Positions 20,788 through 25,076 of a stretch of 64,000 bases of DNA are shown one piece after another. Numbering within the stretch: the stretch's first letter is position 1; every line of letters begins with the position of its first letter. The stretch comes from Arcobacter sp. FWKO B (lineage in GTDB: Bacteria > Campylobacterota > Campylobacteria > Campylobacterales > Arcobacteraceae), in NCBI RefSeq assembly GCF_014844135.1, contig NZ_CP041403.1, positions 2,046,001 to 2,110,000 of the forward strand, given 5' to 3'. The notes beneath the pieces were generated by a model. The model searched no databases, had not been told where the DNA came from, and saw only the letters and a list, made by a program, of their open reading frames with translations. The position numbers were made by a program, and so were the translations under genes.

Positions 20788-21954
20788 ATGAAAAGAAATA
20801 TTATTTTTGTTTTGTTAATTTTATTATCCTTTGTAGGATGTACTAAAAGTATTGATACTATTAAAGTACAGCCAACAACTGTTCCTGTAGAATATAAGGT
20901 AACTAAAATACAAGAACATGAATCAAAAGAGATTGAAGTAGAAGAGGTTTTTAATGAAGTGATAATTAAAAGTCCTATTGAAGAAACTTTACCTTTAACA
21001 ATGATAAAAAAAGAGAAAATTGCATTAGTGTTTCCTTCTAAGATTGTTGGAAGATATGGAAATGACGCATTAAATACAATTATGGCATATTCACTATTTA
21101 GAAATATTGATTTTGAGATAAAAGTATATGATTCACAATTTGAATCTTACAATCATATTTCAAATATTTTTAAAAAGATTGAACAAGATGGCTTTAAAAA
21201 AGTAATTGCAATATTTTCCCAAAACGATACAGTATTAAATATATCTAATCTAAATAGCTTTCAAATATATATCCCAACTCTATTAAGACAAAATTCACCA
21301 TTAAAAGTAAATAATATAACATATGGTGCTATAAACTACAGTGAACAATTCAATCATCTTATGAAATTTGCACAAGGTGGTTACACGGAAATTTTTGATA
21401 ATGAATCAATTTCATCAATATTATATGCAAATTTACAAAATAAAAGTATAAATTTAAGATCAAAACAATTTATATCACAACAAACAACAAATTATAAGCC
21501 ACTTTTTGAAAATAATAGAACTATAAATAATAGTACATTATTTTTAAATACAACTGTTCTTCAAAGCTCAATAATATTGTCACAATTAAGAGTTTATGAA
21601 ATAAATCCTTTTGTAGTATTATCAACTCAAATAAACTATAACCCTATGATTTTATCACTTAGTCAATTTGAAGATAGAAAGAGTATGCTTATAGCAAATT
21701 CTATAGGATATGTAGACCCAAAACTTAAAGCAATTGCAGAAACACTTAGAAGTGACTTAGAATATAACTGGGTAAATTTTTCTACAATAGTTGGTATAGA
21801 AAGTCTTTTATTTAACAATCAAAAAAAATACTCAAAAGGGTATGATATAAGAGACAATCAAGTTTATTATGAAACTACAGTTTACAGACCTGCTAGTTAC
21901 TCTTTTATAAAAGTAGAACAAATGCAACCAGTATTCCTAAGAGAAACTAATTAA
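20788..21954 (+). CDS. lipoprotein with periplasmic-binding-like domain, 388 aa
   Basis: Residues 1-17 form a signal peptide ending in FVGC with Cys18, so the protein is lipid-anchored. From about residue 77 (KIALVFPSKIVGRYGNDALNTI) the alternating strand-helix pattern resembles the type-1 periplasmic-binding fold of LpoA-like activators of penicillin-binding proteins. That assignment is by pattern only. GGAGTAAAG precedes the ATG. A hairpin terminator follows. Confidence 0.7.
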   Translation: MKRNIIFVLLILLSFVGCTKSIDTIKVQPTTVPVEYKVTKIQEHESKEIEVEEVFNEVIIKSPIEETLPLTMIKKEKIALVFPSKIVGRYGNDALNTIMAYSLFRNIDFEIKVYDSQFESYNHISNIFKKIEQDGFKKVIAIFSQNDTVLNISNLNSFQIYIPTLLRQNSPLKVNNITYGAINYSEQFNHLMKFAQGGYTEIFDNESISSILYANLQNKSINLRSKQFISQQTTNYKPLFENNRTINNSTLFLNTTVLQSSIILSQLRVYEINPFVVLSTQINYNPMILSLSQFEDRKSMLIANSIGYVDPKLKAIAETLRSDLEYNWVNFSTIVGIESLLFNNQKKYSKGYDIRDNQVYYETTVYRPASYSFIKVEQMQPVFLRETN

Positions 21955-21967
21955 ATACAAATCAATT

Positions 21968-22006
21968 AAAAGCTTTAAACTTAAACACTTTTTAAGCTTT
22001 TTTTTT
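21968..22006 (+). terminator. rho-independent terminator
   Basis: AAAGCTT and AAGCTTT form a stem around an AT-rich loop and are followed by a run of T residues (to about 22006), just downstream of the lipoprotein gene and just upstream of the ribosomal-protein promoter. Confidence 0.7.
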
Positions 22007-22007
22007 G

Positions 22008-22013
22008 TATAAT
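22008..22013 (+). promoter_or_regulatory. -10 element of the rpmJ-rplQ operon promoter
   Basis: TATAAT after a T-rich stretch. Transcription would start around 22019-22020, exactly where the structured leader begins, which supports both calls. Confidence 0.7.
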
Positions 22014-22019
22014 CCACAA

Positions 22020-22117
22020 CTGTTTTCTAATCAAAGAGGAAGTTTTTGCAAAATATGCTATTTTTTTAAAATAGATTTTGTAAAGAGTTGGTGTACTTGC
22101 CACCTATTAGAAAACAG
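22020..22117 (+). ncRNA. three-way-junction leader RNA of the rpmJ operon (candidate ribosomal-protein autoregulatory element)
   Basis: P1 is a perfect 12-bp stem between CTGTTTTCTAAT (22020-22031) and ATTAGAAAACAG (22106-22117). Inside it, TTTTGCAAAAT (22044-22054) pairs with ATTTTGTAAAG (22075-22085) with two G-U pairs and encloses CTATTTT/AAAATAG with a TTT loop (22058-22074). A third stem GGTG/CACC (22090-22104) abuts P1. The rpmJ ribosome binding site lies 20 bases further on. S4 and other ribosomal proteins bind mRNA leaders in such operons in other phyla; which protein binds here is inference. Confidence 0.7.
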
Positions 22118-22143
22118 AGAATTTAACGGCGCAAAGGAAAGCT

Positions 22144-22257
22144 ATGAAAGTAAGAGCTTCAGTTAAAAAAATGTGTGACAAATGTAAAGTCATCAAAAGA
22201 AGAGGTGTTGTAAGAGTTATCTGTGAAACACCAAAACACAAACAAAGACAAGGATAA
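22144..22257 (+). CDS. rpmJ: ribosomal protein L36
   Basis: The 37-residue product [20 protein letters not shown] and following [16 protein letters not shown] is a textbook bacterial L36 with the zinc-binding C-x2-C, C and H ligands. AAAGGAAAG precedes the ATG. It heads the operon, with rpsM starting 3 bases after its stop. It is too short for many gene callers. Confidence 0.97.
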
Positions 22258-22260
22258 ATA

Positions 22261-22629
22261 ATGGCTCGTATCGCAGGTGCTGATTTACCAAACAAAAAAA
22301 GAATGGAATATGCCTTAACATATATTTATGGTATAGGACTACATACTTCAAGATTGATTCTTGATGCAACAGGAATATCTTACGACAAGAGAGTTTTTGA
22401 ATTAACAGAAGATGAAGCAGCAGCTATCAGACAAGAAATTCAAAAAAACTATATGGTTGAGGGTGATCTTAGAAAAAAAGTTGCTATGGATATTAAAGCT
22501 CTAATGGACTTAGGTAATTACAGAGGTTTAAGACATAGAAAAGGTTTACCAGTTCGTGGTCAAAGCACAAAAACAAACGCTAGAACTAGAAAAGGTAAAA
22601 AGAAAACCGTTGGTTCTGCATCTAAGTAA
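22261..22629 (+). CDS. rpsM: ribosomal protein S13
   Basis: The 122-residue product shows the S13 start [19 protein letters not shown], the GIG signature of the helix-hairpin-helix, and the C-terminal [10 protein letters not shown]-type block ([19 protein letters not shown]). S13 sits in the head of the small subunit, contacting tRNA and L5. Standard length, standard operon position. Confidence 0.97.
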
Positions 22630-22641
22630 TAAGGTTTAGTA

Positions 22642-23037
22642 ATGGCAAAGAAAAAAAATGTAGTTAGAAAAAAAATAGTAAGAAAAAATATTGCTGATGG
22701 TATAGTACATATTGCAGCAACATTTAATAATACAGTTGTTTCTGTAAGTGACAATGCTGGAAATGTTATTGCTTGGAGTAGTGCTGGAAGCCTAGGTTTC
22801 AAAGGTAGCAAAAAATCTACACCATTTGCAGCACAACAAGCAGTTGAAGATGCAATGAAAAAAGCGATGGAACATGGTATCAAATTCGTAGGTATCAAAG
22901 TTCAAGGTCCTGGTAGTGGTAGAGATACTGCTGTGAAATCTGTAGGTTCAATTGATGGTGTTAGTGTAAGATGGTTCAAAGATGTTACACCACTACCTCA
23001 CAATGGTTGTAGACCTCCAAAAAGAAGAAGAGTGTAA
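22642..23037 (+). CDS. rpsK: ribosomal protein S11
   Basis: The 131-residue product carries the S11 hallmarks [32 protein letters not shown] and the C-terminal [13 protein letters not shown]11 forms part of the platform of the small subunit. The N-terminus is Lys/Arg/Val-rich as usual for the phylum. Confidence 0.97.
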
Positions 23038-23047
23038 GGAGTAGGAT

Positions 23048-23674
23048 ATGGCAAGATATAGAGGACCAGTAGAAAAAGTAGAAAGAAGATTAAACGCTGA
23101 TCTAGGCCTTAAAGGTGAAAGAAGATTAGCTGGTAAAAGTGCATTAGAAAAAAGACCATATGCTCCTGGACAACATGGACAAAGAAGAACAAAAATTTCT
23201 GAGTATGGTTTACAATTAAGAGAAAAGCAAAAAGCTAAGTATATTTATGGTATTTCTGAAAAACAATTTGCAAAATACTTCAAAGAAGCTGCAAGAAGAA
23301 CTGGTAACACAGGGGAAAACCTAATTATTATGCTTGAGCAAAGACTTGATAATGTAGTTTATAGAATGGGTTTTGCAACTACTAGAAGATTTGCAAGACA
23401 ACTTACAACTCATGGACATATCTTAGTAGATGGACAAAAAGTTGATATCCCTTCTTATGTAGTAAGACCAGGGCAAAAAGTTGAAATTAGAGAAAAATCT
23501 AAAAGTAATCCACAAGTTTTAAGAGCAATCGAACTTACAAATCAAACAGGTATGGTTGATTGGGTTGATGTTGAAAAAGAAAAACAATATGGTATATTCA
23601 CAAGATTACCACAAAGAGAAGAGGTTGTTATACCAGTTGAAGAGAGACTTGTAGTTGAGTTATATTCTAAGTAA
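23048..23674 (+). CDS. rpsD: ribosomal protein S4
   Basis: The 208-residue product has the S4 N-terminus ([19 protein letters not shown]), the central [20 protein letters not shown] block and the S4 RNA-binding domain [17 protein letters not shown]. It lacks the zinc cysteines of some S4 forms. S4 nucleates small-subunit assembly and represses its own operon in several bacteria, which makes it the first candidate ligand for the leader RNA at 22020. Confidence 0.97.
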
Positions 23675-23687
23675 TAAGGACTAGAAT

Positions 23688-24689
23688 ATGAGAAAAATTA
23701 CAGATACACCGTTTTTACCAACTGATGTAGAGATTGAAAAAGTAAGTGATACAGTTTCTAAAATTATTGCGTACCCTTTTGAAAGTGGTTATGCAGTAAC
23801 TTTAGCTCATCCGTTAAGAAGAATTCTAATGAGTAGCTCAAAAGGTTTTTCACCAATAGCAGTAAGAATTGCTGGTGTTAAACATGAGTTTGACTCATTA
23901 AGAGGTATGCTTGAAGATGTTGCTGTATTTATTATCAATCTTAAAAATATTGGCTTTAAAGTTAGAGGCACAACAGAATCTCAAATTGAAGTAGAGTATT
24001 CTTTTGATGGTGCTAAAGAAATTAAAGCAATAGACTTAAATAACTCTTTTGTAGAAGTTGTAAATGAAGATGCTCATTTAGCTACAATCAATAGTGATTG
24101 TAATCTTTCATTTTCAATTATATTACAAAGAGGTATAGGATATGTTCCAAGTGAAGAGATCAGAGATTTAATTCCTGCTGATTATATTCCACTTGATGCA
24201 TTTTTCTCTCCTGTAAAAAAAGTTATTTACGATATAGAGAAAATGCTTGTAGAAGACAATCCAAACTATGAGAAAATAATATTTACTGTAGAAACTGATG
24301 GAGAAATTACACCTGTTGAAGCTTTTAAAGAAGCTGTATCTGTAATGTATTCTCAAATGTCAGTGTTTAATAAAGTATTTGATTTAAGTGATGTATCTTT
24401 AGCTGAAACAACTGAAGAACCTGCTGAAGTTAAGTCTTTAGTACAAAAAATAGAAGATTTGAATTTAAGTGCAAGAAGTTTTAATAGTTTAGATAGATCA
24501 GGCATCAAATACTTAGGTGAATTAGTATTAATGAGTGAAGCTGAAGTTAAAAATATTAAAAATCTTGGAAAAAAATCTTATGATGAGATTAGTGAAAAGC
24601 TTGAAAGTCTTGGATTTCCAGTAGATTATACTTTGCCTGAGAGCATTGCTTCAACTCTACGAAGAAAATTAGAGCAATTAAAAGCTTAA
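23688..24689 (+). CDS. rpoA: RNA polymerase alpha subunit
   Basis: The 333-residue product has the dimerisation domain (GYAVTLAHPLRRILMSSSKG region, about 35-55) and the C-terminal helix-hairpin-helix domain from about 255 (LNLSARSFNSLDRSGIKYLGEL, NLGKKSYDEISEKLESLG) that contacts UP elements and activators. Length and position between rpsD and rplQ are standard. Confidence 0.97.
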   Translation: MRKITDTPFLPTDVEIEKVSDTVSKIIAYPFESGYAVTLAHPLRRILMSSSKGFSPIAVRIAGVKHEFDSLRGMLEDVAVFIINLKNIGFKVRGTTESQIEVEYSFDGAKEIKAIDLNNSFVEVVNEDAHLATINSDCNLSFSIILQRGIGYVPSEEIRDLIPADYIPLDAFFSPVKKVIYDIEKMLVEDNPNYEKIIFTVETDGEITPVEAFKEAVSVMYSQMSVFNKVFDLSDVSLAETTEEPAEVKSLVQKIEDLNLSARSFNSLDRSGIKYLGELVLMSEAEVKNIKNLGKKSYDEISEKLESLGFPVDYTLPESIASTLRRKLEQLKA

Positions 24690-24725: not shown

Positions 24726-25076
24726 ATGAGACATAAGCATGGTTATAGAAAACTAAATCGTACATCTTCTCATAGAAGTGCGTTACTGAAAAACTTAGCG
24801 ATTTCTTTGATTCAACACGAGAAGATAGAAACTACATTACCAAAAGCAAAAGAGCTTAGAAGTTATGTAGAAAAACTTGTTACAAAAGCTAGAGTTGCTG
24901 ATTTTAATTCACATAGAGCAATTTTTGCAGTATTACAAGACAAAGAAGCTACAAAAAAATTAATTAATGAAGTAGCTCCTAAATATGTTGGAAGAAATGG
25001 TGGATATACATCTATCATTAAAACAAGAATTAGAAGAGGCGATGCTACACAAATGGCATTTATCTCTTTCGTATAA
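24726..25076 (+). CDS. rplQ: ribosomal protein L17
   Basis: The 116-residue product starts [20 protein letters not shown] and contains the family's [18 protein letters not shown] block, as all bacterial L17 proteins do. AAAGGACAAAC precedes the ATG. It is the last gene of the operon and is followed by a strong terminator. Confidence 0.97.

Follow-up and report, generated by a model that had tools for sequence, protein, structure and literature searches.

How ribosomal-protein synthesis is controlled in Campylobacterota has so far been nearly a blank, and the locus analysed here raises the question of whether one of its large ribosomal-protein operons starts with a regulatory RNA, and if so which protein that RNA might bind. 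The window, i.e. the whole stretch of DNA that was analysed, comprises 64,000 nucleotides of Arcobacter sp. FWKO B (contig NZ_CP041403.1, positions 2,046,001 to 2,110,000). An earlier note, made from the letters alone, had proposed a new leader RNA of 98 bases in it, upstream of the following genes.

22144..22257, plus strand: rpmJ (L36), first gene of the operon (ORF and translation)
22261..22629, plus strand: rpsM (S13) (ORF; PF00416)
22642..23037, plus strand: rpsK (S11) (ORF; identity from sequence)
23048..23674, plus strand: rpsD (S4) (ORF; identity from sequence)
23688..24689, plus strand: rpoA (ORF; identity from sequence)
24726..25076, plus strand: rplQ (L17) (ORF; identity from sequence)

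The sequence, coordinates, reading frames and stems given in that note were all borne out by the window sequence and its ORF list. The leader and its surroundings can be divided as follows.

22008..22013, plus strand: -10 box TATAAT of the leader promoter, its end 7 nt before 22020 (sequence; relatives)
22020..22117, plus strand: structured leader RNA with a three-way junction (z of -4.4; matches to the R1 and R2 models described below)
22020..22031, plus strand: closing stem P1, 5' strand (12 perfect pairs; relatives via duplex search)
22032..22039, plus strand: purine-rich junction J1/2, CAAAGAGG (two alignments, core counts)
22040..22054, plus strand: P2, 5' strand (AA base pairs, G22042 opposite G22087, then 12 pairs)
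22058..22074, plus strand: apical hairpin on P2, 22058-22064 paired with 22068-22074 (fold)
22075..22089, plus strand: P2, 3' strand, with AGAGUU at its end (fold, covariation)
22090..22104, plus strand: hairpin P3, GGUG 22090-22093 with CACC 22101-22104 (covariation, fold energy)
22106..22117, plus strand: closing stem P1, 3' strand (fold; duplex search; alignment of relatives)
22118..22143, plus strand: linker with the Shine-Dalgarno sequence AAGGA at 22134-22138 (sequence; pseudoknot tests)

The closing stem is perfect over its 12 base pairs, as had been described, with 22020-22031 (CUGUUUUCUAAU) facing 22106-22117 (AUUAGAAAACAG). The two-part P2 hairpin and the GGUG/CACC P3 hairpin, which had been said to complete a three-way junction, agreed with both the fold and the relatives, and the start codon of rpmJ at 22144 leaves the expected gap of 26 bases. 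The leader has a minimum free energy of -27.2 kcal/mol; 200 dinucleotide-shuffled versions gave -14.4 +/- 2.9 (z -4.4), and none of them folded as well (0/200). The fold of minimum energy differs at P3, pairing GGUG with UGCC and adding AGG 22037-22039 with CCU 22103-22105; the GGUG/CACC form, at -27.1 kcal/mol, lies 0.1 above it and is the one backed by relatives. The last bases of J1/2 form a conserved RARG ahead of the P2 base, which reads GAAG in other families. In the predicted fold of the window leader the Shine-Dalgarno sequence does not pair with the leader.

The prediction that transcription starts at the first base of the leader fits the TATAAT box and its counterparts in relatives. 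A TA[TCA]AAT motif was present just 5' of P1 in 98 of 100 Arcobacteraceae members, against 22 expected from shuffles, and its end was separated from the first paired base of P1 by 0-7 nt. On account of this position, the transcript probably begins within P1. The promoter was missed by a consensus sigma-70 scan because the scan demands a -35 box, and such a scan is uninformative for the Campylobacterales lineage. No terminator-like hairpin was found between the leader and rpmJ. On the other side, a hairpin (AAAAGCUU...AAGCUUUUUUUUU) with a T run at 21967-22007 looks like a terminator for the upstream gene at 20788-21954, and overlaps the region directly 5' of the TATAAT box.

We compared the leader with catalogued RNAs. 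None of the 4227 families of Rfam 15 reached its gathering score in the window leader or in the leaders of 36 related loci, tRNAs being the sole matches in the window and these loci; sixteen related loci of Arcobacteraceae gave no Rfam match. The earlier note had named a match to a known leader family as one result that would count against it; Rfam 15 gave none. Membership of the Alpha_RBS family (RF00140) was considered and rejected: its best match in the window scored 18.8 bits against a cut-off of 38 (E 0.034) and lay at 22197-22293, outside the leader, covering the last part of rpmJ and the first part of rpsM; an AGGUGUU/AACACC stem lies within rpmJ. In two relatives this model scored 22.8 and 17.2 bits, again below gathering and outside the leader. 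Such sub-threshold matches probably reflect sequence similarity around the start of rpsM. Like the RF00140 leader of E. coli and other gammaproteobacteria, whose ligand is S4, the element precedes the core genes rpsM-rpsK-rpsD-rpoA-rplQ, and in most families it likewise has an RNA pseudoknot in the region of a translation start. The Campylobacterales element differs from RF00140 in forming a three-way junction that lies before rpmJ and leaves the start codon outside. Neither a Campylobacterota leader nor rpmJ is mentioned in the text of the 2020 r-leader survey (PMC7247131), and no leader of r-protein genes is named in the main text of an RNA screen that covered the Arcobacter sp. L genome (PMC6429828). 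No report of this leader was found in the literature searched, in whose supplements an unnamed motif is possible. Since no Rfam 15 family fits and both sources are silent to this extent, we class the leader as a new family among r-protein leaders.

Conservation was examined first of all within the Arcobacteraceae. Regions upstream of rpmJ were fetched by way of S13 from 100 of the 104 genomes searched, covering 20 genera. The core of the three-way junction was present in all of them (100/100), its signature being a closing P1, a P2 with RARG and an AA...UU base, and a P3 with a GG...CC base. An automatic duplex search, misled by a few long or odd P3 arms, allowed a closing stem to be drawn for nearly all 100 regions. 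The sequence of P1 is wholly different among groups: CUGUUUUCUAAU/AUUAGAAAACAG is the version of the window's genus, and others read CCAUUUUUCCAAC/GUUGGAAUGUGG, UUCAUUCUCAA/UUGAGAUGAA and CUGUUUCUAUAG/CUGUAGAUUCAG. The distal part of P3 is highly variable, from 15 to about 200 nt. Several genera (L004, L013, L016, L061, L063 and others) have a P3 arm enlarged to about 120-200 nt with inner hairpins of its own, on an unchanged junction.

A sequence-only MAFFT alignment of 43 Arcobacteraceae members, in which the variable P3 tips were replaced by a short filler, gave a covariation score of 0.330 against 0.155 after shuffling (0/500), and structures slid along the alignment scored at most 0.107. 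Overall, 90.4% of helix cells paired. Two-sided changes were found at 6 of the 7 inner pairs of P1 and at 8 pairs of P2, 98.5% of whose cells were paired; the GG/CC base of P3 paired in 40 of the 43 members and its outer pairs covaried. The covariance model R1, built from this alignment, had a sole significant match in the window (22016-22121, 67.8 bits), a single match in the 2.24-Mb genome to which the window belongs (E 6e-11), and exactly one match per genome in 101 of 104 Arcobacteraceae genomes. Two records titled Helicobacter pylori PMSS1 (L222) and Lutibacter sp. (L250) carry an S13 that is 84-85% identical to that of the window and look like mislabelled Arcobacteraceae.

A blind search with R1 then covered 349 genomes of the order, and 20 of its matches outside Arcobacteraceae were fetched. 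Those with E values up to 0.012 all lay 18-47 nt before rpmJ-rpsM, while those above 0.018 did not; the weak matches above about 0.02 (L144-L150) had no rpmJ downstream and were taken as random. The DNA upstream of rpmJ was examined in 54 genomes of other families. Most of these have P1, a GAAGA-type junction, a P2 ending in (U/C)UGG and a GG...CC P3, and the leader often lies inside the gap between infA and rpmJ. A second alignment, of 24 sequences from other families, gave a covariation score of 0.451 against 0.146 after shuffling (0/500), with slid structures at 0.129 or less. Paired cells amounted to 97.7% in P2 and 94.4% in P3, but only 46.5% in P1, whose register differs among groups. 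Covariation of the stems in relatives, one of the checks that the earlier note had proposed, was thus observed in two alignments.

A model built from these 24 sequences, R2, contains no Arcobacteraceae sequence. It nevertheless matched the window leader at 22021-22116 (23.5 bits, E 2.9e-5 in 1.1 kb). Strong R2 matches (E below 1e-5) were obtained in the families that we label f3, f4, f5, f6, f7, f9, f10, f11, f12, f18, f19, f20, f21 and f22, and the leader was found in at least 13 families besides Arcobacteraceae. Among the 65 genomes with rpsM located, the match lay 135-586 nt upstream of that gene on the same strand in 64; in the remaining one, match and rpsM are on different contigs. Carriers include Aliarcobacter vitoriensis, Malaciobacter halophilus, Poseidonibacter ostreae, Campylobacter volucris, C. 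showae, Sulfurospirillum, Hydrogenimonas, Sulfurovum and Nitratifractor. In the Hydrogenimonas-like family f4 (L152-L154) the leader is 265-586 nt upstream of rpsM, with a GC-rich insert between it and rpmJ. Divergent versions were recognised by eye in f15, f16 and f23. The earlier note was therefore too modest: the leader occurs in most sampled families of the order, and outside the window's genus it has in addition a pseudoknot with the ribosome-binding region.

Nothing like the leader was seen in the DNA upstream of rpmJ in f8, f13, f14 and f17; R2 matches in f13 genomes (E 0.02-0.08) were at chance level, too weak to be retained. At several f13, f14 and f17 loci (L174-L179, L188-L189) no more than 60-120 nt separate rpmJ from the end of the upstream gene, which is infA in the cases where that end could be recognised. 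This short distance in leaderless loci suggests that the leader was lost where infA and rpmJ are tightly linked. The apparent absence in f13, f14 and f17 offers a natural comparison.

In most families the loop of P2 has a complementary segment in the linker that joins P1 to the start codon. The loop/segment pairs are CCACU/AGUGG, CCGCU/AGCGG, GGCAC/GUGCC, UGCACCG/CGGUGCA, ACACU/AGUGU and GGGAA/UUCCC in other families, and UUUGUGU/ACACAAA and UUGUGAUU/AAUCACAA in Arcobacteraceae. Pairing of each loop with its own downstream segment exceeded 5000 of 5000 permutations, a statistic that ignores kinship of the sequences. When 20 sequences were aligned by sequence alone, the five pseudoknot pairs had a covariation score of 0.289 against 0.156 after shuffling (0/500), with slid structures at 0.095 or less; the numbers of pairs and of pair types with change showed no excess over shuffles in the same 20 sequences. 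From the end of the pseudoknot's 3' strand to the rpmJ start the distance is 9-16 nt in Arcobacteraceae and mostly 21-25 nt in the others, so that this strand abuts the Shine-Dalgarno region. If P2, about 13 bp long, lay next to P1 with its 7-12 bp, its loop would come to the point where the linker leaves P1, a geometry that would be consistent with a pseudoknot.

The window's genus shows no convincing pseudoknot. Its P2 has either an added apical hairpin or a different loop, the apical hairpin occupying the place of the loop that forms the pseudoknot in most relatives, and the candidates of 3-4 bp, in differing registers, were rejected. The pseudoknot is also weak in one large related genus. 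In the Arcobacteraceae genus g2 (L018, L026, L028) the downstream ACACAAA is kept and the P2 loop matches it poorly; this segment may have another role, or the pseudoknot may be decaying.

The assignment of the leader to the rpmJ-rpsM-rpsK-rpsD-rpoA-rplQ operon is well supported, all copies checked preceding rpmJ-rpsM. This fixed place, the single copy per genome, junction bases that hardly vary and a pseudoknot right beside the Shine-Dalgarno region together point to a protein-controlled initiation of translation. On balance, we favour the reading that the RNA is a cis-acting autoregulatory leader of the whole operon that represses translation, with S4 as its most likely ligand. The transcript would begin at P1 or slightly upstream of it and fold over its first ~98 nt into the three-way junction. 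An r-protein of the operon in excess over rRNA, most likely S4, would bind the conserved core made of the purine junction, the AA/UU base of P2 and the GG/CC base of P3. It would then repress initiation at rpmJ, and the later genes via translational coupling. In most relatives, pairing of the P2 loop with the bases right before the Shine-Dalgarno sequence would transmit repression by fixing the RNA in a fold that obstructs the 30S subunit or traps it. That a protein binds, that it is S4 and that control is translational rather than transcriptional is what we infer.

S4 is the first candidate because of precedent in E. coli, B. subtilis and other lineages. In E. coli it traps the 30S subunit on a pseudoknot at the ribosome binding site and thereby represses the alpha operon, and in B. 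subtilis it autoregulates rpsD (PMC10931766). According to the r-leader survey, four S4 leaders are predicted in other lineages, the ligands known for r-leaders are products of regulated genes, and among the proteins of this operon S4 is the one with established multigene alpha-operon leaders elsewhere (PMC7247131). As described there, the Firmicutes rpsD and Fusobacteriales S4 leaders share S4 as putative ligand, and the Fusobacteriales leader likewise precedes rpsM-rpsK-rpsD-rpoA-rplQ (PMC7247131); judged from these descriptions, they differ in that the rRNA-like GUAA element common to both is unconserved in ours. The S4 motifs of Clostridia, Bacteroidia and Flavobacteria in the same survey are also predicted leaders of alpha-operon genes, but belong to other lineages, and those of Bacteroidia and Flavobacteria are described as hairpins rather than three-way junctions (PMC7247131). 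A pseudoknot lying upstream of the initiation site and excluding it is known from the mycobacterial rpsO (S15) leader, where it is thought to block ribosome binding, whereas gene, ligand and fold all differ (PMC10931766).

One argument for S4 was abandoned. The core, with GAAGAAG... and GUAAAG, first resembled helix 16/18 of the S4 site on 16S rRNA. GUAA is present at the candidate position in the window (UUGUAAAG) but in only 9 of 100 Arcobacteraceae, and is not conserved in Campylobacter-type leaders or those of other families; the mimicry argument was dropped for this reason. That the earlier note did not recognise the structure as a described alpha-operon or S4 leader is in line with the lack of an Rfam 15 match in the leader. 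Two further observations count against the favoured reading: the leader precedes rpmJ rather than rpsM or rpsD, and the window's genus lacks an evident pseudoknot, its Shine-Dalgarno sequence being free in the predicted fold.

Autoregulation by another ligand of the operon (S13, S11, L17, L36 or their complex) is a possibility to be taken seriously, if an unlikely one. The leader always precedes every one of these genes, those for L36 and S13 being nearest, the core has no conserved S4-type GUAA element, and the survey admits that prediction of ligands by precedent is uncertain (PMC7247131). Against this, S13, S11 and L36 leaders are absent from the new motifs listed in the text of that survey and L17 leaders are listed there only directly before rplQ (PMC7247131), while S4 belongs to the primary 16S-binding proteins (PMC10931766), the class from which ligands usually come. 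It is rather doubtful, in particular, that the RNA is an order-wide r-leader with S13, S11 or L36 and not S4 as ligand, in which the P2 loop would fold along P1 and clamp the bases before the Shine-Dalgarno sequence. If the ligand is S4, the leader is another unrelated RNA solution for one protein; if it is not, a new autoregulatory r-protein would be at hand. With one leader across most of the sampled order, Campylobacter included, autoregulation of the alpha operon becomes directly testable there.

We regard as improbable that the conserved 5' UTR structure acts without a ligand, as an mRNA-stabilising 5' cap, an RNase processing site or a 30S standby site setting high constitutive expression of the operon. 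P1 does start, in almost every species, with the bases predicted to be transcribed first, like protective 5' hairpins, and the distal P3 varies from 15 to about 200 nt. A protective stem, however, needs neither the near-invariant RARG, AA/UU and GG/CC found in all families nor a covarying pseudoknot ahead of the Shine-Dalgarno sequence. Finally, that AT-rich intergenic DNA folds in this way by chance, or that the structure is the terminator of the gene before it, has practically no probability left; the AT-rich region and the separate hairpin with T run at about 21967-22007 might speak for it. The z of -4.4 speaks against it, and it is already refuted by covariation that exceeds both controls by far in each of two independent alignments, and by blind homologues in the same position in other families.
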